Below, piece after piece: positions 5,490 through 24,546 of a stretch of 25,925 nucleotides of DNA. The position numbers and the translations under genes were made by a program. Positions within the stretch are counted from its first letter, which is position 1; each line of letters begins with the position of its first letter. Below the pieces are notes generated by a model, which saw only the letters and a list, made by a program, of their open reading frames with translations, was not told the DNA's origin and did no database searches. The DNA comes from a virus. The stretch spans positions 1 through 25,925 of the IMG/VR virus record IMGVR_UViG_3300036846_001541. One strand, 5' to 3'.

Positions 5490-5543
5490 GGCCTGCTTCC
5501 TACCGGTCAATGTTTCGATGCGTTGCACACGCCGGAGGCCCCG

Positions 5544-8239: not shown

Positions 8240-8273
8240 GGGGCCGGGCGGCTCAAATGGCCAGCCAGGCCCC
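8240..8273 (-). terminator. Possible terminator at the end of the tail operon
   Basis: On the minus strand GGGGCC and GGCCCC arms enclose an inner GGCT/AGCC stem, 31 nt past the last tail gene's stop codon. Only two T residues follow, so it is a strong hairpin but a poor intrinsic terminator. The rest of 8076-8303 is the SulP upstream region, where no convincing promoter was recognised. Confidence 0.35.
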
Positions 8274-8303
8274 GTTCGCTCCCTATGTTGCGCGCCCGCT
8301 GCG

Positions 8304-8981
8304 TTAGTAGCCGGTCACGTCAAGCACCGCGAGGGCTGCATTGTTCGCGGTATAGGTGAACCCGGTGGGCAGAGGCAGGCCGTAGTTGGGTCCATAGGTG
8401 CGACGAGCCTTGGACGTCATCCCGAAGGTGATGGTGCCACCGTTCACAGCCCCTCCGGAAACACTCACGTCCTCGTATTGCAGGTACTCCTGTGGATCGC
8501 CCCATCGCCGGAACGTGTTCACCGAATCGAACGCGGAGACCAGAGGCATCACTGCCCACGCCCGACCAGGATCGAACTGTGCACTGCCCTGCCAGCCGGG
8601 GCGCGTCGATGCCGAGCGCAGGCCAGCCACCCGCGCGGCCTTCCTGCCCGCGTCGAACATCAGACGGCCAGCACTGTCACGGATGATCAGGCCAAAACTG
8701 CTCGGCGGTTCCTGCGGTGGCGCGTAGACATACCACTGCACCACTGCACCGGGTGGACCCAACAGATACAACCCAGCTGGATAGCCGTCGATCTCGTTGA
8801 AGTACTGGCTACCCACCACTGCGGTCGAGCGCACAGCCACGGAACCCGCATGGTTGCCGATGTAGCGGCTGCCTTCACCGTCCAGCGTAGTGGTGCCCTG
8901 AGCGAGTATCGCCAGTGTCGGGAAGGCATCGTCGATCAGCACCGTGCCCCAGTCATTGATGATCTTGATTCCTGCGGTCAT
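8304..8981 (-). CDS. Post-J tail-associated protein (225 aa)
   Basis: Function is not recognised beyond position: it is the last gene of the tail operon, after J and a 92-residue protein, where flexible-tailed phages keep small tail-tip or fibre-associated proteins. The N-terminus 'MTAGIKIINDWGTVLIDD' is related to the start of its neighbour ('SAGIQVFNADGSLGYD') and to the last residues of J ('IQVFDAAGTLRVQMG'). The rest is rich in Gly, Ser and aromatic residues with predicted beta character and no signal peptide or membrane helix. ATG 8979-8981 begins 1 nt after the upstream stop codon, consistent with translational coupling. It could be a tip accessory or a small receptor-binding protein. 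Confidence 0.65.
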   Translation of the reverse strand: MTAGIKIINDWGTVLIDDAFPTLAILAQGTTTLDGEGSRYIGNHAGSVAVRSTAVVGSQYFNEIDGYPAGLYLLGPPGAVVQWYVYAPPQEPPSSFGLIIRDSAGRLMFDAGRKAARVAGLRSASTRPGWQGSAQFDPGRAWAVMPLVSAFDSVNTFRRWGDPQEYLQYEDVSVSGGAVNGGTITFGMTSKARRTYGPNYGLPLPTGFTYTANNAALAVLDVTGY

Positions 8982-8982
8982 G

Positions 8983-9261
8983 TCAGCGCGCCCATATTTC
9001 GACAGTGCCGGGATAGCGGTCTTTGAGGGGAACGTTGACGTGGCGCCAGCTGATGGTGCCGGAGGCCATGTCGATGGTGAAGTCCGGGGCATACCAGCCG
9101 CGAGCGACCGCCGTTAGATCGGTATCCTCCGGTTGCCGTGAGAAGGCGGCGCTGCTGTCCACCGTGCTGTACTGCACGCGTGCAAGCACGCGGAACAACC
9201 GTCCCTGCGGGTCGTAACCCAGGCTGCCGTCGGCATTGAATACTTGAATTCCTGCAGACAT
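8983..9261 (-). CDS. Small post-J tail protein (92 aa)
   Basis: A 92-residue protein whose ATG (9259-9261) overlaps the J stop codon as ATGA, so it is probably translationally coupled to J. It begins 'MSAGIQVFNADGSLGYDPQG', very close to the C-terminal motif of J and to the N-terminus of the next gene. The remainder ('FTIDMASGTISWRH' and so on) looks like a small beta-rich domain. A GTG two codons upstream (9265-9267) is an alternative start. No enzymatic motif is visible. A structural or adaptor role at the tail tip is inferred from position and the shared motif. Confidence 0.65.
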   Translation of the reverse strand: MSAGIQVFNADGSLGYDPQGRLFRVLARVQYSTVDSSAAFSRQPEDTDLTAVARGWYAPDFTIDMASGTISWRHVNVPLKDRYPGTVEIWAR

Positions 9262-12200
9262 CACCACACCCCCATCTGCACACGCAGCGTTCCGGCTGCA
9301 TCAAATACCTGGATCACGTTGTTGACGATGGTCAGATAGCCCCCGTTGTCCGGGCCGGTCATCGTCATCGCGCCGCTCTTGTCCAACCGCCAACGCGGCA
9401 AGCCCTTGGCGCCCACCGCGTTGGACTGGATGAAGTCACCGATCATCGCGTTCTGGATCCTGCCGTTGCCGATCAACGCCTGGCTGATGAAGGTCTGCCC
9501 GTTCTCGACTACGAAGGGCGTGGTGATCTGCCCGTTCCTCTCATTGATAAGCGCGAAGCGATCCGCCTGCATCAGGATCTGGCTCTGGTAGCTGCCATCA
9601 GGCTGCTGCTCCACGCCCAGGCCCATACCGGCCATGTAGATCTGCCCGGCGCTGGTGATCTGTGCCTTGACCGTATAGGTCGCACTGACCTTCCCATCCA
9701 GGTTGACCACGGCCTGCGAGACCTGCTGGACCGCGGCACTGACACCCTCGATCTTGCCGGGAACACCATCGATGGATGCCTCGACCGTATCCACCCGCTT
9801 GGCCAGTGCCGCGTCCTTCTCCGCCATTACGCTGTAGACGGTGATGGCGCCGGCAGTAACGTCGTTCTCACCGACGTTGTAGTCCTCCTCGCCCGCGCTG
9901 TGGTCGCTGACCTGGGCGAACAATCCGTCGACCTTCTGACCCTGCGCGGCCACCTTGCCATCGACCTCGGTGACGTCCATCTCAAGCTGATCGACACGAC
10001 CAACAACGGCACCAGCGTCAGCGATGGCATCACCCACATCCTTCCAGTGGGTACCGGGAGGCGTTTCGTTGCCTGCTGCGCCTCCCTGCCAGCTCCAGAT
10101 CCGGCCGCCATGGATGACGGTCTGGCCCGGACTGTACGAAGCAGCCGCGTCCCATACCAGCGGCAGTACCTCGGTGACGCGCTCGATCTTGTGCTGCAGC
10201 TGCTGACCCAAGGCACTTTCGTTGATGCGGCCAGCGAAGTAGCTGTCGTAGTCGTCTGGGTTGCTGCTCGATTCGCCGAGCACCCCGACATCCAGTGGAT
10301 ACCAGGGCCCGATGTTGCCGCTGCGATCCACCAGGCGCCCCCAGAACCAGAAACGCACGCCTGCGGCCAGACCGTTCATCTGGTGCTGCGCCTGCGGATA
10401 GGCGAAGTCACCGAGCTTGATCGCGCTCTCACGGTTGGTACCGGTGCTGTACCAGAGCTCGGTACGCTCGGTATCGGTTGCGCCTTGGGGGAAGCCCCAG
10501 GACAGTGCGATGCCGAAGGGGTGACTGGTGCTGGTCAACGACGAGAGCGACGGCGGTGGCGTGGTCTTGCCCTCAATCGTCGTCAGTGCGCTGACCATCG
10601 GCTGCGACACCGCACCCAGCGCATTGACCGCACGCACCCGGGCCAGGTACTGGCCGGCATACACGCCACGCACTTCCAGGCTCTGCGTACCCACGCGACC
10701 GGCGCGTACCCAGTTGAGATCGCCACGACGCCATTCCACGTCATAGGCGATCGCCTTGTCTGCCGCATCCCACTCGATGGTAAGCATCGACGTGGCAATA
10801 CCCTGATCGACCACGACATGCGAGGCCATCCGCACGTTGCTCGGTGGCGGCTGCACACTGGGTGGCACGATGCTGATCGGCAGTTGCTCCAGGCGCGTAC
10901 CATCATCGATGGCGGCATACTTGCCCGGCACATGCTTGAGCGCGGTGATCTGGTAGGTCAGCTCTTCGCCTTCACTGATCGACAGCACGCGGTACTGCTG
11001 CAGTGCCAGCTCCGGCGACTCCAATGCCCAGACCGACTGCGCGACCGGCACTGCCGACCACGGTGCAGTGACCATGACCGTATTGCCGTCAACCGACTGC
11101 ACCGTACGCGCTTCGGAATGGCCGTTGGGGAGCGTGGCGCGCAGGATGTCACCTGCTTCAATCTTCTCTGGCAGCTGGTCCAGCACCATGGTACGGGCAC
11201 CCGCGCTGCGGATACGTCCCGCGTTGCGGCGACCGGCGCGGTTCGGGTCGGCCACCTGGATCACGTCACCCGGCATGCAGCCCAGTGCATCAAGCCCTAC
11301 GGAGAAGCTGATCGTCTCGGTTTCCAGCATCTCGGTATGCAGGATATGGTTGCCCACCCGCTGCGCCTGCGAGCGCGAATGGCAACCCACCGCCGTTACT
11401 TCAGTCTGGTTGATGCCATAGCGGGCAACACCAGGCAGGTGCTGCACCACTTCAACCTTCTGCCGACCGAAGTCATCCGGATCGATCCAGGACACCAGAG
11501 CGACGGTATGTCGCGCCGTACGGCTGCTGCCCGCATAGTGGAAGCGGCCCTCGATGACGTTGGCCTGGCTGTAGGTCAGCAACGGGTCCTTGGGCATATC
11601 GGCCGAAGCCATGACCTGACCGGCCGCATAGAAGCTGATGCCACGGAACATGGTGGCGATGTCCTGCAGCACCCTGTACGCCTCAGCGCGGGTCTGCAGG
11701 TACAGGCTGCAGGTGAAGCGCGGCTCCTTGCCGCCTTGGCCGTTGCTGACCAGCTCATCGCAGTAGCCTGCAATCTGGTACAGGCGCCACTTGTCCACCC
11801 AGTCCAGCGGGATGCGATGGCCCAGGCCGAAGCGATCGTTGGTGACGATGTCGAAGAACACCCACGCCGGATTGTTGGTCCAGCCGCTCTTGAAGGTGCC
11901 ATCCCATACACCGCTGTAGACTCGGGTGAGCGGGTCGTAGTTGGACGGGATACGGACGATGCGCCCCCACAACTGATACGAGCGTGTGGGAATGTTCTGG
12001 AACTGGCTGGCATCGACCTGCACCGCCGCCAGCGCGCAGTTCGGATAGCGCAGCTTGGCATCGATGATCTCGGTCATCGACAGCACATTGATGGTGTCGG
12101 CGATGGTGCTGCTGTTGGCATTCGCAGTCAGTCGGCGGATGCGCACCTGCCACTGGCTGCCCGCCGGAAGATCGATGCGGCGGCTGCGCTCGTACTGGCT

Positions 12201-12749
12201 GGTGGTCTTGCCACTGAAGGCATCGTTCAGCACGGTGCTGAACGGGCCACCATCGGTGGACAGGTCCACCGCATACATGATGCGGTAGCCCTCGGTATCA
12301 CCGTTTTCGGTGTTGGTCTTCTGCAGCGCAGGCACCGCAAAACGGATACGGACCGCTGACAGATCGGCACCGGACACGGTGCGTACCACGGGCGCATCGC
12401 TGCGCAGTTCGACGTTGACGCCGACTTCGTTCTCGATCGAGGGGAAGCCGCTGATGTGCTCCTGGTCCTGGGCGCCCGAACGCGTTTGTACGTCCACGCC
12501 GGAGAAGTTCAGCGTGCCGTCCGGATTCTCGATCGGTACCTGGTCCAGGTAGATGGACTGCTTGCCCGCTACCAGACCGCGGATCTCACCTTCACTGGCA
12601 AGATCGATGATGCGGGCAACCGCCATCGAGTGCAGGCTGTCCGGCGTTTCCACCGGCGTGCGTGCATTGCTGGAGCCCTTTTTTGCGCCGGCCAGCGTGG
12701 GCATGGGTGCACTGCGCTCACGCTGTGCGGATTGAATTATCTGGTTCAA
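9261..12749 (-). CDS. J: Tail tip / host specificity protein J (lambda gpJ-like)
   Basis: A 1162-residue central tail-tip protein that, in lambda-like phages, forms the tip and contacts the receptor. The N-terminal half has the gpJ core: 'DSLHSMAVARIIDLASEGEI' near residue 40, then 'VFFDIVTNDRFGLGHRIP' and 'RFTCSLYLQTRAEAYRVLQD'. About 640-830 holds two fibronectin III-like units ('MLTIEWDAADKAIAYDVEW', 'IALSWGF'). About 990-1090 matches the J C-terminal (DUF1983-type) region ('IYMAGMGLGVEQQPDGSYQS'). The extreme C-terminus ends in 'IQVFDAAGTLRVQMGVW'. The start is a TTG (12747-12749) supported by GGAGG at 12757-12761, 7 nt upstream, and overlaps the gpI stop as TTGA; the next ATG (12702-12704) has no good ribosome site. 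Receptor specificity cannot be read from sequence. Confidence 0.93.
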   Translation of the reverse strand: MNQIIQSAQRERSAPMPTLAGAKKGSSNARTPVETPDSLHSMAVARIIDLASEGEIRGLVAGKQSIYLDQVPIENPDGTLNFSGVDVQTRSGAQDQEHISGFPSIENEVGVNVELRSDAPVVRTVSGADLSAVRIRFAVPALQKTNTENGDTEGYRIMYAVDLSTDGGPFSTVLNDAFSGKTTSQYERSRRIDLPAGSQWQVRIRRLTANANSSTIADTINVLSMTEIIDAKLRYPNCALAAVQVDASQFQNIPTRSYQLWGRIVRIPSNYDPLTRVYSGVWDGTFKSGWTNNPAWVFFDIVTNDRFGLGHRIPLDWVDKWRLYQIAGYCDELVSNGQGGKEPRFTCSLYLQTRAEAYRVLQDIATMFRGISFYAAGQVMASADMPKDPLLTYSQANVIEGRFHYAGSSRTARHTVALVSWIDPDDFGRQKVEVVQHLPGVARYGINQTEVTAVGCHSRSQAQRVGNHILHTEMLETETISFSVGLDALGCMPGDVIQVADPNRAGRRNAGRIRSAGARTMVLDQLPEKIEAGDILRATLPNGHSEARTVQSVDGNTVMVTAPWSAVPVAQSVWALESPELALQQYRVLSISEGEELTYQITALKHVPGKYAAIDDGTRLEQLPISIVPPSVQPPPSNVRMASHVVVDQGIATSMLTIEWDAADKAIAYDVEWRRGDLNWVRAGRVGTQSLEVRGVYAGQYLARVRAVNALGAVSQPMVSALTTIEGKTTPPPSLSSLTSTSHPFGIALSWGFPQGATDTERTELWYSTGTNRESAIKLGDFAYPQAQHQMNGLAAGVRFWFWGRLVDRSGNIGPWYPLDVGVLGESSSNPDDYDSYFAGRINESALGQQLQHKIERVTEVLPLVWDAAASYSPGQTVIHGGRIWSWQGGAAGNETPPGTHWKDVGDAIADAGAVVGRVDQLEMDVTEVDGKVAAQGQKVDGLFAQVSDHSAGEEDYNVGENDVTAGAITVYSVMAEKDAALAKRVDTVEASIDGVPGKIEGVSAAVQQVSQAVVNLDGKVSATYTVKAQITSAGQIYMAGMGLGVEQQPDGSYQSQILMQADRFALINERNGQITTPFVVENGQTFISQALIGNGRIQNAMIGDFIQSNAVGAKGLPRWRLDKSGAMTMTGPDNGGYLTIVNNVIQVFDAAGTLRVQMGVW

Positions 12750-13351
12750 AACTGGTCCTCCGCCAGGATGCCGCCGCTGATCACGGCCGAGCCGATGAAC
12801 ATGCCTTTCTTGTCATGCCCGCCGTAAGCGACCGGTACGGGATTGCCCTGCGCCTGTGTGTTGACGGTGCCGTTCATGCTGTAGCTGGGGGTGTTGTCGG
12901 GCGAGTCTTTTGCTGCCAGCCCCTTGGGCTGGGGAGAGAGCATCTGCGTTACGCCGCCAATGACCATGGACACGCCCATCTTGATCATTGGCTCGCCGAT
13001 TGCTCCGTATCCATAGGCCGATGCAATCGCGCCGACGACGATCAGAACGACACCCGCAATCGTCTGCAGCACACCGCCTCGTTTGCTGCCCACCATCACC
13101 GGCGCGATACGGATATCGTCCTGGCCAGGCGGATCGTGCAACTGTTCCTTCGACAAGTTCTGCCTGCCAGCGAAAACGGCGAATTCAATGCCCTTGGACT
13201 TTGCACCCATCAGGTACTGCTGGAAGCCGGGCAGCATTACGCACAGCGCATGCACGGCTTCGGCGGGGCTGTTCACCGCCAGCCGGAATTTGCGCCCGAA
13301 GCGCGCACCCAGCTTGCCGTACAGGCGGATGGTACGAAGACGGTCAGTCAT
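12746..13351 (-). CDS. I: Tail assembly protein I (lambda gpI-like)
   Basis: A 201-residue protein with the gpI layout. The N-terminal half is a ubiquitin-like beta-grasp ('IRLYGKLGARFGRKFRLAV' through 'AFAVFAGRQ'-like strands). A hydrophobic Gly/Ala segment follows (about 100-150, 'IAGVVLIVVGAIASAYGYG' and 'MGVSMVIGGVTQML'), then a polar tail ending 'PVPVAYGGHDKKGMFIGS'. In lambda, I acts with K, L and J in forming the tail-tip initiator. ATG 13349-13351 is chosen because the family sequence 'MTDRLRTIRLYG' starts there; it overlaps the K coding end by 8 nt. Its own stop overlaps the TTG of J. The tight overlaps indicate coupled translation of K, I and J. Confidence 0.9.
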   Translation of the reverse strand: MTDRLRTIRLYGKLGARFGRKFRLAVNSPAEAVHALCVMLPGFQQYLMGAKSKGIEFAVFAGRQNLSKEQLHDPPGQDDIRIAPVMVGSKRGGVLQTIAGVVLIVVGAIASAYGYGAIGEPMIKMGVSMVIGGVTQMLSPQPKGLAAKDSPDNTPSYSMNGTVNTQAQGNPVPVAYGGHDKKGMFIGSAVISGGILAEDQF

Positions 13352-14084
13352 GGTGCACCTCGCGATGGCGGACGATGCAACGGGTGCGCTCGGCCCACAT
13401 CCCGCCGTAGGGCACGGTTTCGGACAGGCGGCCATGCAGGTGATGCAGCATCTGCCCGTCGCCCAGGTAGACGCCGGCGTGATTGGTCACCGGCGAGCGG
13501 ATCTGCATCAGGATCATGTCGCCCCGCCGCGGCTCGCCTTCGATCAGGTCGAAGCCTTCCGCATGCAGTCGCTCAAGGCTGTACAGGTCCTGGCCCTTGT
13601 CCCACCAGTCGTCGTCGCGGGTGTAGTCGGACAAGGAAATGCCCAGTTCACGCGCGTGGAAGTCGCGTACCAGGCTGTAGCAGTCCAGCACACCATGGGC
13701 GAACTGGCGGCCGACCAGCGGCGCGGCATAGCCATTCGGGTGGATGGTCTGCAGATCACCGCATTCCGGCGCATCACCGTCCACTTGGCCGACGCTGACA
13801 ATGTGCCAGGTCAGGCCACTGTGCTCGCACATCACCCGATCCGCGTCCGACGGTGTGGCTGCCGCGTCCGGATGGCTGTGCACCAGTGCCAGCACCTCGC
13901 CCTTGTCCTCGGCGACGGCATAGTCCTCGGCCGGCAGGCGGAAGTGTTCACTGGGCGTGCCCGCGAGGTTGCGGCACGGCAGATAGTGCTCGCGGCCTTC
14001 GATGGCCACGATCAGCCCGCAGCACTCGCGCGGGTACTCGGCCACGGCATGTGCCTGTATGGCCTGCAGGGTTGTTGGTTGCAT
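13344..14084 (-). CDS. K: Tail protein K: JAMM protease-like plus NlpC/P60 peptidase
   Basis: A 246-residue two-domain tail protein. The first half (about 1-105) is a JAB/MPN domain with an intact JAMM set: E20 in 'YPRECCGLI', H69 and H71 in 'LVHSHPD', and S79/D82 in 'TPSDAD'. The second half (about 115-240) is an NlpC/P60 domain with C135 in 'GVLDCYSLVRDF' and H202 in 'VTNHAGVYLGDG'. In lambda-like phages K works in tip assembly and may cut peptidoglycan during DNA entry. Both active sites look complete, which argues against decay of this locus. ATG 14082-14084 follows 'GGGTGAAAC'. An intrinsic terminator ends just upstream, so expression of K probably depends on read-through. Confidence 0.93.
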   Translation of the reverse strand: MQPTTLQAIQAHAVAEYPRECCGLIVAIEGREHYLPCRNLAGTPSEHFRLPAEDYAVAEDKGEVLALVHSHPDAAATPSDADRVMCEHSGLTWHIVSVGQVDGDAPECGDLQTIHPNGYAAPLVGRQFAHGVLDCYSLVRDFHARELGISLSDYTRDDDWWDKGQDLYSLERLHAEGFDLIEGEPRRGDMILMQIRSPVTNHAGVYLGDGQMLHHLHGRLSETVPYGGMWAERTRCIVRHREVHHD

Positions 14085-14093
14085 GTTTCACCC

Positions 14094-14118
14094 AAAAAAA
14101 TAGCCCGCGCGAGCGGGC
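14094..14118 (-). terminator. Intrinsic terminator between L and K
   Basis: On the minus strand GCCCGC-TCGC-GCGGGC forms a 6-bp all-GC stem with a 4-nt loop (14103-14118), followed by TA and seven T residues (14094-14100). It sits inside the operon: the T-run ends 9 nt before the K start codon, next to its ribosome site. The plus strand has no T-run, so it acts in the direction of the tail genes. Confidence 0.75.
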
Positions 14119-14146
14119 CTGGAAGTGGAGAATCGGAAGCGCTGGA

Positions 14147-14842
14147 TCAGGAGCGGAGCAGGCCGGCCGCCGGGAAGCCGCCATAGGGCAAAGGCTTGTC
14201 CTGGCCGAAGCGCATCTTGCAGCTGCGCACACGGCCGCCGCACTGGTCGCGGGCGGGATCATCGGTGGCAACGTCGTCGCCATCGGCAACTGCGGGACCG
14301 TTGTAGCCGCAGTAAGGGCCGCGGTAGCCACCGCGTACCAGCCAACCACACATGCCGGCGATGATCTGCCGGCCGGGCAGCTGTTCGCCGTTGAGATCGA
14401 TGGCTGTAGTCAGCTCGAACTCCACCATCTGCTTGTCTTCACCGACCTTGCGCTCGATGAACCAGACCTCGTCAGGGAAGTGCTCTGCCGGATCGGCGCT
14501 GGGATTGCCCTCTTCGAAGTTGGCAGCATCCAGGTACTTGGCCAGCGTCTGCCGACGGATGACGCGGGCGCCGACCAGATCATCGAACAGCAGGCACATC
14601 GCGGTGATGCGGCCATCGATGTTGCTGACCCGAAGCTTCGGGTTCGGCGGCTGGTCGCTGGTTCGTTCAAAGCCGCTGGCTTCGATCGGCCAGGGGCCGT
14701 ACTCCTGACCCTGCCAGGTGATCACACCGCTCTGCAGGTGCGCGTGGAAGAACAGCTGGTCGGCACCGAAACTGCTGGCGTCCAGTTCGAAGACAGTAAT
14801 GCGGCCACCCGGCTCAAGTTGCTGGGCATCGGCGGTGATCAT
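14147..14842 (-). CDS. L: Minor tail protein L (lambda gpL-like)
   Basis: A 231-residue minor tail protein. The N-terminal part carries 'GGRITVFELDASSFGAD' and 'ITWQGQEYGPWPIEASGFE', typical of gpL. The C-terminal third has four Cys (C165, C178, C201, C208 in 'GMCGW', 'YCGYNG', 'DQCGG', 'SCKMRFG'), the pattern that in lambda gpL binds an iron-sulfur cluster needed for tail assembly. All four are kept here. ATG 14840-14842 overlaps the stop of the preceding 58-residue ORF as ATGA. In most lambda-type tails L follows M directly; here about 5 kb with four fibre genes separates them. Confidence 0.93.
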   Translation of the reverse strand: MITADAQQLEPGGRITVFELDASSFGADQLFFHAHLQSGVITWQGQEYGPWPIEASGFERTSDQPPNPKLRVSNIDGRITAMCLLFDDLVGARVIRRQTLAKYLDAANFEEGNPSADPAEHFPDEVWFIERKVGEDKQMVEFELTTAIDLNGEQLPGRQIIAGMCGWLVRGGYRGPYCGYNGPAVADGDDVATDDPARDQCGGRVRSCKMRFGQDKPLPYGGFPAAGLLRS

Positions 14843-15015
14843 GAGTAGGTCTCCTGTGTTGCGGCACGCAGTTCGCGTGAAAGTGGCAGGCCGGATGGTT
14901 CATTGCTGGGTGCCGGTCTCCCGGCGCCGCAAACGAGGACACGATGACCAGGCGGCAGGGAGGTATTGGTGGTGAAGCAGTGAAGCTGGTTGTGCTGGAT
15001 GGCGGGTTTCTTCAT
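14839..15015 (-). CDS. Small ORF (58 aa) coupled to L
   Basis: A 58-residue ORF beginning 'MKKPAIQHNQLHCFTTNTSL'. The support is contextual: GGAG lies 7 nt before ATG 15013-15015, the start comes 1 nt after the stop of the last fibre gene, and the stop overlaps the L start as ATGA. It fills the gap exactly. No signal peptide, membrane helix or known domain is visible; it contains two Cys and several Pro. It could be a small fibre chaperone or assembly protein, or only a translational link that couples L to the fibre genes. No function is claimed. Confidence 0.55.
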   Translation of the reverse strand: MKKPAIQHNQLHCFTTNTSLPPGHRVLVCGAGRPAPSNEPSGLPLSRELRAATQETYS

Positions 15016-15016
15016 G

Positions 15017-16153: not shown

Positions 16154-16251
16154 TGACTTTCCTTGCCGCACTGGTGGAAACCTGCGGCCATGTTGTGTTT
16201 CGGCAGACTCATTCCGCGTGGATCGAAGAGGCCCTGGCACGCCCGGGATAG

Positions 16252-17406: not shown

Positions 17407-17444
17407 TGTGGGTTCCTGGAATTCGATCTGGAAGCGGCTGGAGA

Positions 17445-18596: not shown

Positions 18597-18619
18597 TTCA
18601 GGCTCCTTGAACGTGGTGA

Positions 18620-18639
18620 CGCGGCCGATGTCGGCCGCG
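18620..18639. repeat. 20-bp near-perfect palindrome between fibre paralogs 1 and 2
   Basis: CGCGGCCGA-TG-TCGGCCGCG has perfect 9-bp arms around two bases. It lies in the 54-bp gap after the paralog 1 stop and ends 23 bp before the paralog 2 start. No T-run follows on either strand, so it is an RNA hairpin or processing signal rather than an intrinsic terminator. The other fibre gaps lack an equivalent of this strength. Confidence 0.55.
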
Positions 18640-18650
18640 ATATCGAACCT

Positions 18651-19817
18651 TCAGAGTTCGGCGTCGGCGGTGTAGTGACCTGCAAGCAGTACTCCGCCAC
18701 TGACCGGAAAGGACATGCCACCGATGTCGGCCATCAGGGTCTGGCTGGTCGCCATGACAACGTTGGTCAGCGTCGACGCGCGCCAGGCGCCGCCGACGGC
18801 GTCGTAGTAGCGCCAGGTACTGGGAGAGCCCAGATTTCCGCCTTCGCCGCTGGCATAGAAGGTCACGCGGGGGGTGTCCCGCATGGTTGCCTTGAGTTCG
18901 GCGACGACACGGCACGTACCGCTGTTGAATGCCGTCGCGGTTCGATGCATGGCGCTGTTGCTGTTGCTGTTTGGTACCTCTGCAACAGGGAAACTCTTCT
19001 GGAAGTAGCGCTGGCAGAGTGCCAGTTCCAAGCCGATGGGTCTCCACTCGAAGGTGGTCGCACGCGCCCCGGCTTCCCATTGCAGCTCGCCGAAGTACAA
19101 CTGGCCGCTTTGCGCGCCGAGGCCGCCAGAGCGGGCCGTGAAGCTGCTGCCTGCGGACAGCCATATCGCGCAGATCACCGAATCATCGCCGCCGACAATG
19201 GTCTTTCCATAGACAGAAGGCAAACTGACGGTCTTGCTGATCCTGTTCAACCCCTGGGAGAGCGTAAAGACCTCGGATTGGATGCCCGACACGGTCGCGC
19301 TGCCACCCGTTCCAAAGCGCTGCAGGAATTCCACGGCGATCTTCCGCCCGTTTGCTCCGGCGTTGTAGACGAGGAAGGACAAGGTACTTTCGGATGCGGC
19401 AAAGGTATGGACACCTTCCACGCGCTGCTCGAACAGGAAGTAGTGGCCGGCCGCGTCGGAGCTTCCGCTTGAGTTGGCAGCCAGCGTGCTGCGGCTTCGC
19501 GGAAAATTGGAATCGCCCGCCACGACGGAAGACCTGAAGATGGCTGCCCCGGTCATGCCTCCTTGTTGGCCAATGAACCGGTCTGCCGTGTACCCAGCCA
19601 CAGCGGTGAAGCTGTCTCCCCGCTGCCATATATCGAAGTTGCCGTTGATCAGACGATTCCTGCCTGAGAACGCATGCGCGATAGCGGCTGGAATCTCGTC
19701 CAGAGTGCGCCCTATTTCCTTGAAGTTCTGGTTGATCTTGGTGAATGCGGGGCGCTGGGTTTCACCCCGTTTGCCATTGGGCTGGATGGTGTCCAGGTCG
19801 ATCTGGCTAAGATCCAT
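18651..19817 (-). CDS. Tail fibre / receptor-binding protein paralog 1
   Basis: A 388-residue protein and the first of the four fibre genes in transcription order. The shared N-terminal segment is 'SQIDLDTIQPNGKRGETQ' and 'PAFTKINQNFKEIG'. 'GRNRLINGNFDIWQRGDSF' (residues 52-70) and 'YTADRF' follow. The middle has 'FEQRVEGVHTF' and 'LQRFGTGGS', then 'LALCQRYFQKSF' at about 265-276; the C-terminus ends 'GHYTADAEL'. The ATG at 19815-19817 is preferred to the ATG two codons upstream (19821-19823) because AGGAG then lies 6 nt before it instead of touching it. The gene begins 9 nt after the M stop codon. Its N-terminus is the most divergent of the four, so it may be the ancestral or separately attached fibre. 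Confidence 0.82.
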   Translation of the reverse strand: MDLSQIDLDTIQPNGKRGETQRPAFTKINQNFKEIGRTLDEIPAAIAHAFSGRNRLINGNFDIWQRGDSFTAVAGYTADRFIGQQGGMTGAAIFRSSVVAGDSNFPRSRSTLAANSSGSSDAAGHYFLFEQRVEGVHTFAASESTLSFLVYNAGANGRKIAVEFLQRFGTGGSATVSGIQSEVFTLSQGLNRISKTVSLPSVYGKTIVGGDDSVICAIWLSAGSSFTARSGGLGAQSGQLYFGELQWEAGARATTFEWRPIGLELALCQRYFQKSFPVAEVPNSNSNSAMHRTATAFNSGTCRVVAELKATMRDTPRVTFYASGEGGNLGSPSTWRYYDAVGGAWRASTLTNVVMATSQTLMADIGGMSFPVSGGVLLAGHYTADAEL

Positions 19818-19826
19818 GTCCATCTC

Positions 19827-20156
19827 CTACGGCTGGTACGTCTGTTCGAACGTCGCGGTGATACTGAACACCGATCCACCCAGATGGCTGTCGGTATAGG
19901 TGTCGCAGCCGTATAGACCGGTTCCCAGCGGGCCTCGCCAGAAGAAGCTCTGGCCCACATGGCCATCCAGGAAGGCCACGATCTCGCTGATCGTCCTGCG
20001 GTTGCCGACGAACTGCAGCTGGTAGCTGCGCAGGCGGGCGTTGAGCCCATCCGGCGCGGCCTGTGCGTATCCATCGCCGAAGCGCGCACGCTTGACGGTG
20101 GCAGTGGTGGTGCCCGTGCTCTGGCTGGTTGCTGCCCAGGTAAAGGTGTCGGTCAT
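19827..20156 (-). CDS. M: Minor tail protein M (lambda gpM-like)
   Basis: A 109-residue protein of the lambda M / Phage_min_tail family. Typical segments are 'TFTWAATSQST', 'RARFGDGYAQAAPDGLNARL', 'ISEIVAFLDGHVGQSFFWRG' and a C-terminal 'SVFSITATFEQTY'. M acts with the tape measure at the tail tip during assembly. ATG 20154-20156 overlaps the tape-measure stop as ATGA, so translation is coupled. The length matches the family. The next gene in the operon is a fibre paralog rather than L. Confidence 0.92.
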   Translation of the reverse strand: MTDTFTWAATSQSTGTTTATVKRARFGDGYAQAAPDGLNARLRSYQLQFVGNRRTISEIVAFLDGHVGQSFFWRGPLGTGLYGCDTYTDSHLGGSVFSITATFEQTYQP

Positions 20157-21502
20157 CGTGCTGCACTCCTGCTGAGGACGCCGCCAGCCTTCATGTCACG
20201 CATCTGCAGGTCGCGGTACTTGCGTTCCACGAACTGGCCGATCTCGTTGCCGAACTGCTGCAGCATGCTTTCGTTGCTGGTGACTTCCTTGCCGCCGTTG
20301 TTGTCGATGCGGATGCTCACACCCACTCCACCGCCACCGCCGCCGTGCGCGGCCACACCCAGGCGACCGTCCGGGCCACGCTGCAGCGGCATGATCGCTT
20401 CCGGTCCCGCTTCACCGAATACGCCGGCGCCTTTGGCGAAGGCGAACAGTTGCGGGGTGTTGTAGACACCGCCGGAGTAGGCCGACAGGCTGGGCGACTG
20501 GTAGACGCCACCGTTGGCATTGGCCTCCACTCCCGTGCCATAACCGAGCAGGCCCGTGATCTTTTTGACGCCCCAGACGATTGCCTGCTGGATGGCGATC
20601 ATCTTGAGGTCGGCGATGATCGACTTGGCCAGTTCCTTGTAATTGGACTTGCCCGTCTTCACGAAGCTCTGCAATGCCGCCTCGGCGCCGGTGAATGCCT
20701 TGGAAAATGCATCCTGGGTGGACTTGGCGGAGTTCTCGGCCTTTTCCATGTAGTCGCCGAGCGCACTGCCGAAACCCTTGCGGAACCCCGACAGCCCCTT
20801 GGCGTCCTTGTCATCCTTGCCGCCCTTGCTATCGCCGGCCTTGGCGTCCTTGGGAGCTGTCAGGGCCGCTGTGGCCGCGGTCGCCGCCTCCGTCGCCGTG
20901 TCCTTGGGCGTCAGGTCGACCCCCATCAGGCCGGCGATCTTCCTCGCCCCCCAGACCAGCGCCTGCTGTGCGGCAATCATTTTCAGGTCGGACAGGATGG
21001 ACTGGGCCAGCTCCTTGTACTTGGACTTGCCGGTAGTCACGAAGCTGCGCAGGGCTTCGTCGGCGCCGGTGAACGCCTTGTCGAAGGCCTTCTTGGCGGC
21101 CGTGGCGGTGTTTTCGGTCTTCCCGATGTAGTCACCGAGCGCGCCACCCAGGCCCTTGCGGATGCCCGCCAGGCCCATGTCGTCCTTTTCCGCCTTCTCT
21201 TCCTTCTTCGCGGCCTTGCCTGCGTCACCGCCCGCTGCAGCCGCGCCGCCCTTCGCTGTCGCCTGCATCTGTGTGCTCAGGGCGGCCAACTGCGTGGACA
21301 GTGCGGTGACCAACGAGGCGCTGGTGGTCAGCACAGCATTGAATGCCTGCTGCACCGTATTGATCTTTTCCAGCTGTCGCTGGAACTCCTGTGTGCTGCT
21401 GGTCATCTCGGTCATGCTGCGCCTTGCCGCCTGCATGGCTGTTTCCAGTGCGTTGCTGGCCTCCACGGTGGCCCGTGTGCTGCCAGGCGATGTAGTGCTC
21501 AT
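20153..21502 (-). CDS. Tail tape measure protein (short, with internal duplication)
   Basis: A 449-residue tape measure, identified by position between GT and M and by the C-terminal features of lambda-type tape measures: 'KELAKSIIADLKMIAIQQA', 'NGGVYQSPSLSAYSGGVY', and 'FGEAGPEAIMPL' (359-372) leading to a basic end. Residues 20-80 are a predicted coiled coil; 84-108 is an Ala/Gly/Lys/Glu-rich linker. Two 85-residue copies of one unit follow (110-194 and 236-320) with about two thirds identity and no gaps. Since each residue spans about 1.5 A in the tail, a tube of roughly 65-70 nm is expected, well short of lambda (853 residues). ATG 21500-21502 has GAGGA upstream. No membrane helix is evident. 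Confidence 0.85.
   Translation of the reverse strand: MSTTSPGSTRATVEASNALETAMQAARRSMTEMTSSTQEFQRQLEKINTVQQAFNAVLTTSASLVTALSTQLAALSTQMQATAKGGAAAAGGDAGKAAKKEEKAEKDDMGLAGIRKGLGGALGDYIGKTENTATAAKKAFDKAFTGADEALRSFVTTGKSKYKELAQSILSDLKMIAAQQALVWGARKIAGLMGVDLTPKDTATEAATAATAALTAPKDAKAGDSKGGKDDKDAKGLSGFRKGFGSALGDYMEKAENSAKSTQDAFSKAFTGAEAALQSFVKTGKSNYKELAKSIIADLKMIAIQQAIVWGVKKITGLLGYGTGVEANANGGVYQSPSLSAYSGGVYNTPQLFAFAKGAGVFGEAGPEAIMPLQRGPDGRLGVAAHGGGGGGVGVSIRIDNNGGKEVTSNESMLQQFGNEIGQFVERKYRDLQMRDMKAGGVLSRSAAR
20543..21175 (-). repeat. Tandem duplication within the tape measure gene
   Basis: Two 255-nt units (20921-21175 and 20543-20797) encode residues 110-194 and 236-320 of the tape measure. They align without gaps, with 57 of 85 residues identical by eye. 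Shared blocks include 'SALGDY/GALGDY', 'KAFTGA', 'TGKS.YKELA.SI' and 'DLKMIA.QQA.VWG'. They are separated by a 41-residue Ala/Thr/Lys/Asp-rich linker. Confidence 0.85.
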
Positions 21503-21547
21503 TGAGTGTTCCTCGGGAGAGTCGGCTCCGCATCGGCGGAGTCGGGA

Positions 21548-21576
21548 CCGGCCATCGGCGTTGCCGCGATGGCCGG
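21548..21576 (-). other. Strong stem-loop between GT and the tape measure gene
   Basis: CCGGCCATCG and CGATGGCCGG form a perfect 10-bp stem around a 9-nt loop. It begins 1 nt after the GT stop codon and lies in the 75-nt gap before the tape measure. No T-run follows. A second hairpin with CTCCGC/GCGGAG arms follows it toward the start codon. A translation or mRNA-stability element is more likely than a terminator. Confidence 0.6.
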
Positions 21577-21577
21577 C

Positions 21578-21889
21578 TCATTCCTGTTGCATCTGCTCCA
21601 GGGCAGCGCGTTCGATGACGCGGATGGCCGCCATCACCTCGTCGTACTGGTCGCTGTCGAGCGTTTCGCGCTCCAGCTCCCGGTAGACCACGTTGTAGTC
21701 CAACCCGATCGGGCCACCTGCGCCGACGCGCCACTGGGTGGCAACCCGCGAGAAAAGTTCGATGGGAAGCACGCACTCCGGCCACAACTCGACCTGTGGC
21801 GGCGGAAAGTGCTTTGCCTTCAATCCAAGCTGCATCAGCTCGGATTCGGTGGGGGCCCGCCAGTACAGGGCCCCCACCGCCTCGATCAG
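21578..21889 (-). CDS. T extension of the tail assembly chaperone GT (made by -1 frameshift)
   Basis: The T part has no start codon of its own that fits; it is reached from G by a -1 shift at 21889-21895, giving a 205-residue GT protein (102 from G plus 103 here). After the shift it reads 'LIEAVGALYWRAPTESEL', then 'VELWPECVLPIELFSRVATQ', 'GLDYNVVYRELERE' and 'AAIRVIERAALEQMQQE', a DUF1799-like sequence. In lambda, G and GT together coat the tape measure and recruit tube subunits; T contacts the tube protein. The coding join is 22194 to 21889, then 21889 (re-read) to 21578 on the minus strand. A separate ATG-started protein in this frame would have an odd Arg-rich N-terminus and is unlikely. 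Confidence 0.85.
   Translation of the reverse strand: MIEAVGALYWRAPTESELMQLGLKAKHFPPPQVELWPECVLPIELFSRVATQWRVGAGGPIGLDYNVVYRELERETLDSDQYDEVMAAIRVIERAALEQMQQE
21847..21879 (-). promoter_or_regulatory. Frameshift-stimulating stem-loop
   Basis: A perfect 12-bp GC-rich stem (CGGTGGGGGCCC with GGGCCCCCACCG) closes a 9-nt loop. It starts 9 nt downstream of the slippery heptamer on the minus strand, the range known for stimulators of -1 frameshifting. It lies within the T coding part, where a 12-bp perfect stem would be unlikely unless selected. Confidence 0.85.
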
Positions 21890-22194
21890 TTTCCCTTGCG
21901 TGCGACCTGCAGGGCCTGGGTGTAGCCACCGATGATCGCGCCATCCAGGCCGGCCTGCTGCTGCAGCGCCAGCTCGACGCCGGCGGTGTCCAGCGCCACA
22001 TCGGCATCCCAATCCACCACGATGTCCAGGATCGCCTGTGCCACGCTCAGCTCGTCCTCGGCCAACCGCTCCAGCAGACTGGCGTAGTCAGCCACCGGCA
22101 GATGACGGTAGGTCAGGTTGAGCTTCTGCTCGCGACCGTGACCGATGATGGTCAGGGTGCTCCTGAAGCTCTCCGGCGCCTTTACCTGGAACAT
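21886..22194 (-). CDS. G: Tail assembly chaperone G (lambda gpG-like)
   Basis: A 102-residue protein starting 'MFQVKAPESFRSTLTIIGHG', placed between the tube protein and tape measure as in lambda. It contains 'RHLPVADYASLLERLAEDEL' and 'ILDIVVDWDADVAL', typical of short tail chaperones that bind the tape measure before tube polymerisation. ATG 22192-22194 overlaps the tube protein stop as ATGA. The last codons read K-G-N-stop over a GGGAAAC slippery site, so most ribosomes end here and some enter T. The family is assigned mainly by gene order and the frameshift site. Confidence 0.88.
   Translation of the reverse strand: MFQVKAPESFRSTLTIIGHGREQKLNLTYRHLPVADYASLLERLAEDELSVAQAILDIVVDWDADVALDTAGVELALQQQAGLDGAIIGGYTQALQVARKGN
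21889..21895 (-). promoter_or_regulatory. -1 frameshift slippery heptamer GGGAAAC
   Basis: In the G frame the bases read G GGA AAC followed directly by the TGA stop (21886-21888), a canonical X XXY YYZ site closely related to lambda's GGGAAAG. Slipping back by one base continues as CTG ATC GAG into the T frame. A 12-bp stem-loop follows at the proper distance. Confidence 0.92.
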
Positions 22195-22853
22195 CAGGCG
22201 CCCTCGACCAGGATGGAGTCGGCCAGCGCGGTGAAGGTCGCGGTGGTGCCCATCGGGGTGTTGGCGGCCATGGTCGGGTCGCCGTTGTAGCTCAGGTAGC
22301 CGTACCAGTACAGCACGTCGCCGCCGACCAGCCTGGCACGCAGGATCACCGGTTCGCCCTTGGCGTCGACGTTCTTCAGGGCCGAGTACCACGGCTTCTT
22401 CGGATCGTAGAACAGCGGCAGGGTGATGGTCTTGGCGTTCTTGAAGGTCGGCATCTGCACCTGGCGACCGGTCGGGTCCTCCAGCAGCGTGCCGCTCCAG
22501 TACTGCTGCTCGCCACCGGCGGTGGTCGGGTCGCCCTGCTGGTCCAGGTCGACGAAGACACCGGCCTTGCGCAGCACGCCGGCACCGCTGGTGGCGGGGA
22601 ACAGCACGTTGTCGGTGGTGTCGATGCCAAGCAGTTCAACGCTGCCGGTGGCTTCAGCACCGGCACGGGTCGCGCGGTTGTTCAGGGCCGGCCAGCCCGG
22701 CAGTTCAATGACCACCACATCGCCGGTGTCGACGCTGTTGGCAGCGACGCTGGCCAGTGCCGGCGCGGCCTTGGAGATGGCGGTGGTAGCGATAGCGGTG
22801 GAGATGACCGGTGCGAAGCCGAACTGGGTGCCCTTGGGAAGCTTGAGTGCCAT
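22194..22853 (-). CDS. Major tail tube protein
   Basis: A 219-residue protein in the V/tube position. It starts 'MALKLPKGTQFGFAPVIST' and has alternating beta strands, 'VVVIELPGWPALNNRAT' and 'VQMPTFKNAKTITLPLFYDP' (typical of siphophage tube proteins), and a C-terminal 'GTTATFTALADSILVEGA'. It should form the tube as stacked hexameric rings around the tape measure. ATG 22851-22853 has GAGGA 8 nt upstream; upstream in-frame codons cross an intrinsic terminator and are rejected. No C-terminal Ig-like domain is present. Just upstream lies a perfect terminator hairpin, odd for what should be the most abundant tail protein. Confidence 0.9.
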   Translation of the reverse strand: MALKLPKGTQFGFAPVISTAIATTAISKAAPALASVAANSVDTGDVVVIELPGWPALNNRATRAGAEATGSVELLGIDTTDNVLFPATSGAGVLRKAGVFVDLDQQGDPTTAGGEQQYWSGTLLEDPTGRQVQMPTFKNAKTITLPLFYDPKKPWYSALKNVDAKGEPVILRARLVGGDVLYWYGYLSYNGDPTMAANTPMGTTATFTALADSILVEGA

Positions 22854-22876
22854 GGTGTATTTCCTCGTTGGATAAG

Positions 22877-22899
22877 AAAAACCCGGCGGTTGCCGGGTT
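22877..22899 (-). terminator. Intrinsic terminator before the major tail protein
   Basis: On the minus strand AACCCGGC-AACC-GCCGGGTT gives a perfect 8-bp stem with a 4-nt loop (22880-22899), followed by TTTC. It lies 24 nt upstream of the tube gene start and 25 nt after the previous stop. A plus-strand reading has no comparable T-run. Confidence 0.65.
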
Positions 22900-22923
22900 G
22901 GGGTGTTGCACGGATGAAGCGGT

Positions 22924-23280
22924 TTACAGGTCGGCGTACCACAGGCCGAAATCGAGCCGCGCGCCGTACTTGCGCAGCACGGGTTCATGCACGGCGACTG
23001 CAGCACCGAATGACTCGGCCGTCGGCAGTCCCGCGCAGACCTTGTCTTCGATGTCGCGGATCAGGGTGTTGGCCTGGGCGCGACTGTCTGCCCAGACGGT
23101 CAGCTGCACGCGAGCGTGCTTCTGTCCGGGAATGGAACCTTCGTTGAACCACACGGACTGTCCACCCACCTGCTGGTAGACAGCACACGGGTAGATGACC
23201 GGTTCCGGGGGAACATCGGGATGCAGCCGGCCCTGCAGCAGGGGGCCCAGCAGCGCGTGCAGCTGTGCTTCGTAACTCAT
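22924..23280 (-). CDS. Tail terminator / tail completion protein (DUF3168-like)
   Basis: A 118-residue protein with the DUF3168 pattern: 'YEAQLHALLGPLLQGRLHPD', 'VIYPCAVYQQVGG', 'ARVQLTVWADSRAQANTLIR' and a C-terminal beta strand 'RLDFGLWYADL'. In HK97- and lambda-type phages the counterpart (gpU-like) caps the finished tail and joins it to the head. ATG 23278-23280 has AGGA 7 nt upstream. It follows the head-closure gene after 23 nt. A gp10/Z-like gene that often lies between these two is missing. Confidence 0.88.
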   Translation of the reverse strand: MSYEAQLHALLGPLLQGRLHPDVPPEPVIYPCAVYQQVGGQSVWFNEGSIPGQKHARVQLTVWADSRAQANTLIRDIEDKVCAGLPTAESFGAAVAVHEPVLRKYGARLDFGLWYADL

Positions 23281-23303
23281 TGCAGTGTCCTGGTTGGCGT
23301 CAC

Positions 23304-23654
23304 TCAGGCCGTGCCTGAAGACTGTTCGGTGAACAGCACCGTGGTCTGGCGCCGACTGAAGTCCGGGGCAACACCGGTGATGTCGAAGACCCTGCCGTCG
23401 TGCACGATGCGCATGCCTGCCTGGATGCCGGCCTGCCGCGCGGCCGCAAGGCGGACATGGAACCGCTGGCGGCGGATCGTTGCCGGCAGTCGGCTGTCAA
23501 GCGTCAGCCGCTGCACACTGTCGGTGGCATCGGCGGTGATGGCGGTCCATAGTTCCGCCACCGGCTGCCAGGCATCCAGTGGTTGCCCCCAGGCATCGAG
23601 TCGACCGTCCTGGCGCTCGACCCGGATGCGGCGGTTGAAGTGGCCAGCGTTCAT
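23304..23654 (-). CDS. Head-closure protein (SPP1 gp16 / HK97 gp7-like)
   Basis: A 116-residue protein with the Phage_H_T_join pattern: 'NRRIRVERQDGRLDAWGQPL', 'WQPVAELWTAITADATDS' and 'AGMRIVHDGRVFDITGVAPD', ending in short strands 'TTVLFTEQ'. The family closes the portal channel after DNA packaging and forms the head face of the head-tail joint. ATG 23652-23654 overlaps the upstream stop as ATGA. It is kept intact although no capsid or portal gene is nearby. In a tail-only particle it could serve as part of a tail cap. Confidence 0.88.
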   Translation of the reverse strand: MNAGHFNRRIRVERQDGRLDAWGQPLDAWQPVAELWTAITADATDSVQRLTLDSRLPATIRRQRFHVRLAAARQAGIQAGMRIVHDGRVFDITGVAPDFSRRQTTVLFTEQSSGTA

Positions 23655-24163
23655 GGGATCGCCGCCAGTCGGTAGGGATCGAGCAGCGCGGCGACGCCAA
23701 ACGGCAGCGCCATCGCGATGGCGACACTGCCGATCGGCACGTCGATGGCGGACGTGGAAACCACCACCGCTTCCCGGTGCGCATACAGATGGCCCAGCAG
23801 CAGGCGCACCGCAGCGCGGATGCTGTCGTTGGCCGGCAGGCCCTGCAGCAGCTGCGCGCTGCGCTCGGTGGCCACGGCCAAGCGGCGATCAGCAACGTCG
23901 CGCATGGCCTTGGCCTTGGCCGCGTTGGTCTCGGCATTGGCGGCGGCAACCGCGGCTTCATGCCCGGTCACCGCCGCCGCCATGTCCTGCGGCAACTGGT
24001 CAAGCGCCAGGTCCAGTGCCGGCTGGTCGGCAAACAGCGTCCGTCCCAGGTAGGCCGACGCCGCGTCGGTTGCGGCCGCCAGCAGGTCGCCCAGGATGGT
24101 GTCGTCGTAGTCGCCGTCGATACGGCAGTGCGTGCGGCACTGCTCAAGTGTCAGCAGGGGCAT
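23651..24163 (-). CDS. Head-tail connector protein (HK97 gp6-like)
   Basis: A 170-residue protein, the first gene of the tail operon. The N-terminus 'LLTLEQCRTHCRIDGDYDDT' followed by 'LLAAATDAASAYLGRTLF' is typical of gp6-like connectors (Phage_connect_1), and 'IRAAVRLLLGHLYAHREAVV' is the matching C-terminal helix. The central segment (about 60-105) is an Ala-rich helical insertion, longer than in many members. ATG 24161-24163 has a strong AGGAGG 5 nt upstream. No portal, protease or capsid gene precedes it; instead there is a 383-bp region with promoter and terminator signals, then a host transporter on the other strand. Confidence 0.88.
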   Translation of the reverse strand: MPLLTLEQCRTHCRIDGDYDDTILGDLLAAATDAASAYLGRTLFADQPALDLALDQLPQDMAAAVTGHEAAVAAANAETNAAKAKAMRDVADRRLAVATERSAQLLQGLPANDSIRAAVRLLLGHLYAHREAVVVSTSAIDVPIGSVAIAMALPFGVAALLDPYRLAAIP

Positions 24164-24342
24164 CGAATCCTCCTTCGTTGATGGATGTTGGATGCCCCGA
24201 CCCTGCGCACGCGGCTACGCCGCACGCTGTCATCAAGGACGGCGCGAAAAGGGGCAGGATCGGGGCGGAAACAGAAACGGCCCCACCAGGAATGGCAGGG
24301 CCGCAAGCACGATGACAAGGCGCCGACGGACGGCGTAAACGC
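24164..24342 (-). other. Untranslated leader of the tail operon
   Basis: This 179-bp stretch lies between the upstream terminator and the connector start. It holds small hairpins (GCGGC-TAC-GCCGC at 24211-24223; a GGCCC/GGGCC stem around 24280-24303) and ends with the AGGAGG ribosome site. An ORF opening at 24380 runs through it into the connector gene in another frame, but its composition does not look coding. Antitermination or RNA-structure signals would be expected here. Confidence 0.45.
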
Positions 24343-24371
24343 AAAAAGCCCCCGGCGGTCGCCAGAGGCTT
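24343..24371 (-). terminator. Intrinsic terminator just after the tail-operon promoter
   Basis: On the minus strand AAGCC-T-CTGGC, loop GACC, GCCGG-G-GGCTT forms an 11-pair stem with two G-T pairs, followed by a T-run (the last two stem T plus TTT, 24343-24347). It starts about 13 nt beyond the predicted transcript start, so a transcript from the promoter at 24391-24419 would end after about 40 nt unless terminated RNA polymerase is modified. The layout resembles phage late promoter/terminator pairs controlled by antitermination. Confidence 0.75.
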
Positions 24372-24390
24372 GTATGTCATCGTGGTTGAA

Positions 24391-24419
24391 AAGATACGCT
24401 GCAGGTGCGCACCCGTCAA
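24391..24419 (-). promoter_or_regulatory. Sigma-70-type promoter of the tail operon
   Basis: TTGACG (24414-24419) and TATCTT (24391-24396) are separated by exactly 17 bp on the minus strand, each one substitution from consensus. Ten of the spacer bases form a perfect palindrome, GGTGCGCACC (24404-24413), a plausible operator between the -35 and -10. The predicted start is near 24384. It points at the first tail gene. Confidence 0.65.
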
Positions 24420-24429
24420 TCCGTAAACC

Positions 24430-24446
24430 GTCACCAGTCTGGTGAC
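24430..24446. promoter_or_regulatory. 17-bp perfect hyphenated palindrome upstream of the promoter
   Basis: GTCACCAG-T-CTGGTGAC has perfect 8-bp arms. It lies 10 bp upstream of the -35 box of the tail promoter, and also in the shared region before the plus-strand transporter. In plus orientation TTTT follows, so a weak bidirectional role cannot be excluded. It is a candidate operator for a regulator not encoded in this window. Confidence 0.55.
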
Positions 24447-24496
24447 TTTTCCGGGGCCTGCGTCAGTGCGGTCACAGAGGCGTGCGGTGGTCTGGA

Positions 24497-24502
24497 TAGA
24501 AT
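24497..24502 (+). promoter_or_regulatory. Possible -10 box of the transporter gene
   Basis: TAGAAT lies 44 bp upstream of the transporter ATG. No clear -35 hexamer is seen at the usual distance, so the call is weak. Confidence 0.25.
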
Positions 24503-24546
24503 GGTGTGGCGCCGCTTCCGCAGCGCGTTCACCGCTGGATTCCCGC

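Follow-up and report, generated by a model that had tools for sequence, protein, structure and literature searches.

Flexible, F-type tailocins have been described in Pseudomonas aeruginosa and, as rhizoviticin, in Allorhizobium vitis, in each case as one cluster (PMC10811719). The pyocin cluster of P. aeruginosa has separate regulatory, holin and lytic genes (PA0610-PA0614 and PA0629-PA0631), with PA0613 sitting among the regulatory genes beside the holin gene PA0614 (PMC8262887), and in rhizoviticin a flexible tail devoid of head genes is accompanied by genes for regulation and lysis (PMC10811719). From Stenotrophomonas, maltocins P28 and S16 and the maltocin cluster of strain K279a are known; these are of the contractile R-type and possess their own endolysin (PMC13393414). 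In the open-access literature, which was the range of our search (subscription papers lay outside it), we found only contractile tailocins reported for this opportunistic pathogen, and none of F-type for Stenotrophomonas. Here we analyze a stretch of 25,925 nucleotides held in IMG/VR as a virus (record IMGVR_UViG_3300036846_001541, positions 1 to 25,925; hereafter the window), which contains a headless lambda-type tail operon that we call tail A.

Tail A resembles the F-type pyocins (PA0633-PA0648) in being a lambda-like operon for a flexible tail without a head, and in occupying a fixed place in the host chromosome; by gene content it is best read as a putative F-type tailocin. It differs from the pyocins in that tail A, a second tail operon (tail B) and a hub of control and lysis genes lie far apart on the chromosome, and in that tail A keeps connector genes and has a fibre array between M and L. 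The PrtN family (PF11112) is absent from all seven genomes found to carry tail A, so tail A does not belong with the F-type pyocins in the narrow sense, those under PrtN/PrtR control, and PrtN was rejected as the regulator. The genes of rhizoviticin occupy one prophage-like region of 22.7 kb that retains an integrase remnant and replication genes, whereas the tail A system is dispersed and keeps none of these. The maltocins are contractile, in contrast to tail A, whose operon has no sheath gene; the sheath family PF04984 is missing altogether from five of the seven carriers, which also led us to reject an R-type maltocin as a general provider of lysis. We consider it quite probable that tail A is the tail operon of an F-type tailocin with genes scattered over the chromosome.

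Chromosomal site, selection and gene content of tail A

With the tape measure of tail A as the query, seven of the 91 Stenotrophomonas species genomes in our sample were found to carry the locus: G001 (EA1), G002 (D457), G028, G040, G064, G082 and G089. Counts of eight given below are the window plus these seven carriers. A genome scan also turned up tail loci in Stenotrophomonas that are related to tail A through L. In every carrier tail A stands in identical orientation between a CDF transporter gene and SulP (dus in G082), with no phage head genes at the locus, and all 20 of the locus-free genomes examined have this site without the insert, CDF and SulP or CDF and dus being directly adjacent in most of them. 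Junction comparison places the inserted segment at about 8240-24570 of the window; the locus delimited in the initial annotation (8304-24446) is real, with ends that lie slightly further out. In a tree of the adjacent host genes the eight carriers fall into at least three groups, each beside non-carriers, and tail A thus appears to have been gained or lost more than once, on a tree built from genes that border the inserted segment and might have been transferred along with it.

The operon is under purifying selection. Ratios of nonsynonymous to synonymous substitution (dN/dS; pairwise Nei-Gojobori estimates, each against the window) are low for the core genes (J 0.06-0.14, L 0.03-0.09, K 0.09-0.17, major tail protein 0.06-0.18), in a range similar to that of the flanking host genes (CDF 0.03-0.24, SulP 0.10-0.15). 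The adaptor and head-closure genes give 0.08-0.29, and the values for GT are noisy, since dS is very low there. Synonymous distances to the window are about 0.2-0.8, and the core frames are open in all eight copies. Because the site is fixed, the core genes are intact in eight copies and dN/dS is low, tail A is not decaying. The initial annotation had proposed just such a comparison of synteny and dN/dS within Stenotrophomonas, and had named a full prophage at this position, with the present copy decaying, as the finding that would speak against it. What we observed was the reverse: intact headless copies stand at the same site in the genomes of seven other species, and 20 species have the site without the insert.

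PHROG profile scans of the window proteins reveal an intact lambda-type tail operon on the minus strand (24163-8304), and their order agrees with the unbroken run from connector to J, with two post-J genes, that had been read from the letters. Translation and PHROG scans of the window likewise uphold the absence from the locus of capsid, portal, terminase or packaging, integrase, repressor and lysis genes, and with no sheath gene in the operon the non-contractile tail set is complete. An Rfam search of the window gave no match. The features of the operon are as follows.

23651-24163, minus: head-tail adaptor, Ad1-like connector (PHROG 40, E 2e-21), intact in eight genomes
23304-23654, minus: head closure, Hc1-like (PHROG 25, E 5e-10)
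22924-23280, minus: tail terminator (PHROG 347, E 3e-7)
22194-22853, minus: major tail (tube) protein, 219 amino acids (PHROG 584, E 9e-61)
21886-22194, minus: tail assembly chaperone G (PHROG 569)
21578-22012, minus: T portion of the G-T fusion, reached through the frameshift (PHROG 680, E 3e-27)
21889-21895, minus: -1 frameshift heptamer GGGAAAC with downstream hairpin, heptamer invariant in eight genomes
20153-21502, minus: tape measure, short, 449 amino acids, with an internal repeat (PF09718, Tape_meas_lam_C; PHROG 1716)
19827-20156, minus: tail tip protein M (PHROG 14)
18651-19823, minus: fibre paralogue F1 (PHROG 4492, tail fibre)
17445-18596, minus: fibre paralogue F2 (PHROG 4492)
16252-17406, minus: fibre paralogue F3 (PHROG 4492)
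15017-16153, minus: fibre paralogue F4, 378 amino acids (PHROG 4492)
14147-14842, minus: tail tip protein L, four C-terminal cysteines (PHROG 18, E 2e-115)
13344-14084, minus: tail protein K, JAB/JAMM and NlpC/P60 domains (PF14464 and PF00877)
12746-13435, minus: tail assembly protein I (PF06805, Lambda_tail_I; PHROG 32)
9261-12749, minus: central tail fibre or tip J, 1162 amino acids (PHROG 31, 1299 bits)
8983-9267, minus: post-J gene 1 (PHROG 2427)
8304-8981, minus: post-J gene 2, its start probably internal to the longest open reading frame (PHROG 4062)

The JAMM and NlpC/P60 domains that the initial annotation had assigned to K are matched by the two Pfam families, and the four cysteines of L are visible in translation. 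The frameshift site with its stimulator was also found as described: the heptamer, read from 21895, is in the correct phase for a -1 shift and is followed by a strong GGGGGCCC...GGGCCCCC hairpin, and the block of heptamer and hairpin is nearly invariant across the eight genomes while neighbouring codons vary. J matches those of phages CUB19, Kintu and SBP at 57-59%, and the tail genes clearly derive from lambda-like siphophages of Stenotrophomonas and Xanthomonas.

The control element, tail B and the unlinked hub

Ahead of the first gene of tail A stands a compact control element, and two further terminators lie inside the operon.

24346-24422, minus: control element of promoter and terminator (promoter TTGACG-17-TATCTT at 24419-24391; terminator hairpin at 24371-24346)
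22880-22899, minus: internal intrinsic terminator between the tail terminator and major tail genes
14102-14119, minus: internal intrinsic terminator between L and K

In the window GGTGCGCACC stands immediately 3' of the -35 box and an invariant GATGACATA near the expected start, after which comes the intrinsic terminator hairpin. All eight genomes keep TTGACG-17-TATC(T/G)T, with GGTGCACACC right after the -35 box, the same invariant block and a terminator ahead of the operon; all eight also keep both internal terminators, with base changes that preserve stem pairing, and the T-run of the one at 22880-22899. Because a terminator sits directly behind the promoter, the operon needs some means of read-through.

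Every exact match to TTGACNGGTGCACACC across the 91 genomes falls in a carrier. When the genomes were scored with a covariance model of the element, 14 sites exceeded 90 bits, and none of them lay outside the seven carriers. Tail A accounts for seven of these sites and tail B for five; the other two are in G082, one at the hub lysis genes and one at a prophage-like locus. Intermediate sites of 48-67 bits occur in G041, G043, G023 and G030, after which scores drop to a 35-bit background. One-mismatch motif matches in other genomes were set aside, those with downstream sequence read having no terminator part and looking like chance, and a search of the phage collection with the control element by itself gave no match. 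In G082 a further tail locus (L118, G082:C1:3562000-3580000) has the same element directly before a fibre gene and L-K-I-J.

Tail B is a second tail-only locus, unlinked to tail A, with a near-identical element in front of it in five of the seven carriers. In G002, G040 and G064 this element precedes a headless operon that ends beside a rimO-like gene (named by eye). Tail B encodes a major tail protein (PHROG 158), a chaperone (PHROG 344), a tape measure of about 770 amino acids, two further tail proteins, a protein resembling NlpC/P60 (assigned by eye) and a J-like protein some 2760 amino acids long. The tape measure was found at an identity of at least 57% in G002, G040, G064 and G082 and in a shorter related form in G028; at that identity it is absent from all non-carriers in the 91-genome sample. 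Since only part of the carriers have it, tail B is optional, and tail A and the hub form the core.

The hub, also unlinked to tail A, consists of a divergent helix-turn-helix repressor (PHROG 12107), a Cro/YdaS-like gene, a gene for a 142-residue protein, a holin (PHROG 920) and a lysozyme (PF00959), and all five genes stand together in each of the seven carriers. No head or tail genes surround it in the three genomes whose surroundings were listed, and no S24 or self-cleavage domain was detected in the repressor. Two matches to the E. coli-type LexA-like pattern (CTGT-N8-ACAG) lie near hubs, in two genomes only. The initial annotation had expected that release would need lysis genes elsewhere, and an unlinked hub with holin and lysozyme that co-occurs strictly with tail A answers to this expectation. 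It had also called the locus a self-contained tailocin candidate: the headless locus, the selection on it and the F-type reading are supported, but "self-contained" was wrong, because control and lysis are encoded elsewhere.

The 142-residue protein is likened here to Q because it is sited between Cro and a late promoter. It occurs at 84% identity or more in exactly the seven tail A carriers and in none of the 84 other genomes (an exact test that treats the genomes as independent gives p of about 1e-10). Distant homologues (51-64%) are found in exactly the four genomes with an intermediate element, which there lies about 0.7 kb or less downstream of the Q gene, and an element above 45 bits is present in 11 of 11 genomes with a full-length homologue and 0 of 80 others. 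IMG/VR phages that have the element show a Q-like gene about 1.3-0.7 kb upstream of it in 16 loci. In several of these phages a homologue of the Ad adaptor lies about 8 kb beyond the element, as expected of a late promoter, and in phages the element would be just that, standing before lysis, packaging and head genes. We take this pairing of protein and element, matched divergence included, as the strongest evidence that the two may function together. In the hub of G082 the element itself stands between the 142-residue gene and the holin-lysozyme pair, with the repressor and the Cro/YdaS-like gene upstream.

The closest parallel in control is AlpA of P. aeruginosa, which binds between -35 and -10 and enables polymerase to pass intrinsic terminators in two operons at separate sites, lysis genes among them (PMC7969949). 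Tail A shares with the AlpA and lambda Q systems a promoter with a putative binding element between -35 and -10, an intrinsic terminator just downstream of it and before the first gene, and a co-occurring trans factor; it differs from them in that the Q-positioned protein comes from another, undescribed family and the operons are those of phage tails. From the co-occurrence of element and protein, and by analogy with AlpA, we propose that tail A, tail B and the lysis genes belong to one dispersed tailocin regulon, for which the 142-residue protein would be the antiterminator.

Several observations weigh against this interpretation. In six of the seven hubs the lysis genes directly follow the Q gene with no element between them, and shared ancestry makes the co-occurrence counts not fully independent. 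Neither Pfam nor the solved structures of the PDB yielded a relative of the Q-like protein, and its AlphaFold model is all-helical and of low confidence (pLDDT 66), with no significant match in a fold search. Antitermination is suggested by the position of this protein together with the promoter layout, and the hub of the window's own genome is deduced from that of G028, its nearest genome (CDF protein 99%, J 97.5%). The sole NCBIfam match of the family is PA0613_fam, at E 0.0004-0.04 and 14-20 bits against a cut-off of 100; such a weak similarity would be a lead, not membership.

Among alternatives, the one that survives best holds that the Q-positioned protein activates transcription in the conventional way, the hairpin serving only as an insulator or to give a short leader RNA, with the tailocin reading left standing. 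It gains from the fact that the protein shows no detectable relation to known antiterminators; yet a promoter followed by a terminator, with conserved terminators inside the operon, is the layout of operons under Q and AlpA (PMC7969949), and we regard it as unlikely. We give still less weight to the idea that tail A provides tails to prophages or satellites in the same cell, in which a phage-encoded Q of the same family would switch on the tail loci and so supply its virion with alternative tails or fibres. Adaptor and head-closure genes have been retained at the dN/dS given above, the element and the Q family are also found in use by intact phages, and the carrier G082 has a prophage-like locus bearing the element, all of which would fit. 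Set against this are the presence in all seven carriers of a dedicated hub that brings its own lysis genes, and the fact that terminase PF03237, the one terminase family searched, was not found in five of them, leaving no obvious head donor of that type. In the other two carriers both this terminase and the sheath PF04984 lie inside a P2-like prophage megabases away from tail A. That prophage (sheath and terminase matches at G002:C1:3.65-3.66 Mb and G028:C1:3.06-3.07 Mb) is about 25 kb or less from the hub, the hub regions concerned being L249 and L246. That tail A is a decaying prophage remnant, intact in appearance only, seems to us highly improbable and is already largely refuted: its tail genes clearly come from lambda-like siphophages and its head and integration genes are gone, but eight lineages share one headless form at one site, with all core frames open, low dN/dS over the synonymous distances quoted, and a conserved control element and frameshift site.

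Variable parts of tail A and neighbouring genes

While the tail set listed in the initial annotation stands, four paralogous fibre genes between M and L, about 4.8 kb in all, had gone unmentioned there. Their number per tail A is two in G082, four in the window, G028, G064 and G089, five in G002 and G040, and six in G001; an extra 296-residue entry in G002 is an overlapping non-coding frame and is excluded from these counts. The paralogues, of about 373-412 amino acids, have a common N-terminal IDLDxxQxNGKRGETQRPAFTK and a common end in DAEL or DAEI, and differ in the middle. They may join one attachment domain to alternative receptor-binding parts, in which case a single producer may have several specificities at its disposal. 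The Kintu fibre genes gp18 and gp19, considered as relatives of the array, show no similarity to it or to one another. The tape measure varies as well, with frames of 406, 425, 477-481 and 911 amino acids in orthologous loci, and by the tape-measure principle tail length may therefore differ between strains.

Post-J gene 1 is swapped for other genes in three of the eight genomes. Just 3' of J in G002 (L042), G064 (L050) and G089 (L052), unrelated small genes replace the post-J genes, and G082 (L046) holds both gene sets in tandem. Three prophage-like loci (L007 9089-10357, L008 10001-11248 and L118 7725-8984) encode an L protein with about 190 extra codons at residue 110, a stretch that differs between phages. 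An RNA intron was rejected as an explanation, there being no Rfam match and an open reading frame in L007; because the frame is open across the insertion there, it looks like an inserted domain.

Beside tail A the window encodes, on the minus strand, a 924-residue protein (2269-5043) that combines three domains for peptidoglycan binding with an XVIPCD domain (PF20410) at its C terminus, a predicted effector (X-Tfe) of the bacteria-killing type IV secretion system of Xanthomonadales. Two adjoining minus-strand genes (5085-5528 and 5544-6422) encode LprI-domain proteins (PF07007) that are probably its immunity proteins. This effector-immunity segment is rearranged, absent or duplicated among species. 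Many IMG/VR "viral" records are pieces of the tail A locus, several with host CDF/OsmC genes (L162, L165, L168, L171, L173, L178, L181, L186, L197, L206 and L218), and virus catalogues, by including them, count a probable tailocin as a virus.

Proposed mechanism and significance

Whether these parts make up a new tailocin architecture, in which two unlinked headless tails and a repressor-Cro-antiterminator-holin-lysozyme hub would be bound together by a shared element and an undescribed antiterminator family, we hold to be evenly balanced. On the reading that we favour, induction would start with relief of the hub repressor. The Q-positioned protein would bind the element between -35 and -10 and load onto RNA polymerase, which could then pass the terminator of the leader as well as those conserved inside the operon, and tails would be produced. 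The cell would next be lysed by the holin and lysozyme, and the freed tails would adsorb to competing bacteria through J together with one or more of two to six fibre types and damage their envelope.

To our knowledge, tailocins have been described as single clusters that include their own switch and lysis genes. The tail A system looks split into parts that are matched across lineages, and would illustrate how a domesticated phage can be operated as a regulon. The hypothesis of control that it suggests is simple: a single small protein would let transcription pass terminators at a number of sites. Should the resemblance to PA0613 be genuine, that unassigned gene would encode the antiterminator hitherto missing from the pyocin cluster of P. 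aeruginosa. For an opportunistic pathogen these findings would add a flexible tailocin with a repertoire of fibres, and they suggest that tail A is less a defunct virus than a weapon made of protein and aimed at other bacteria.

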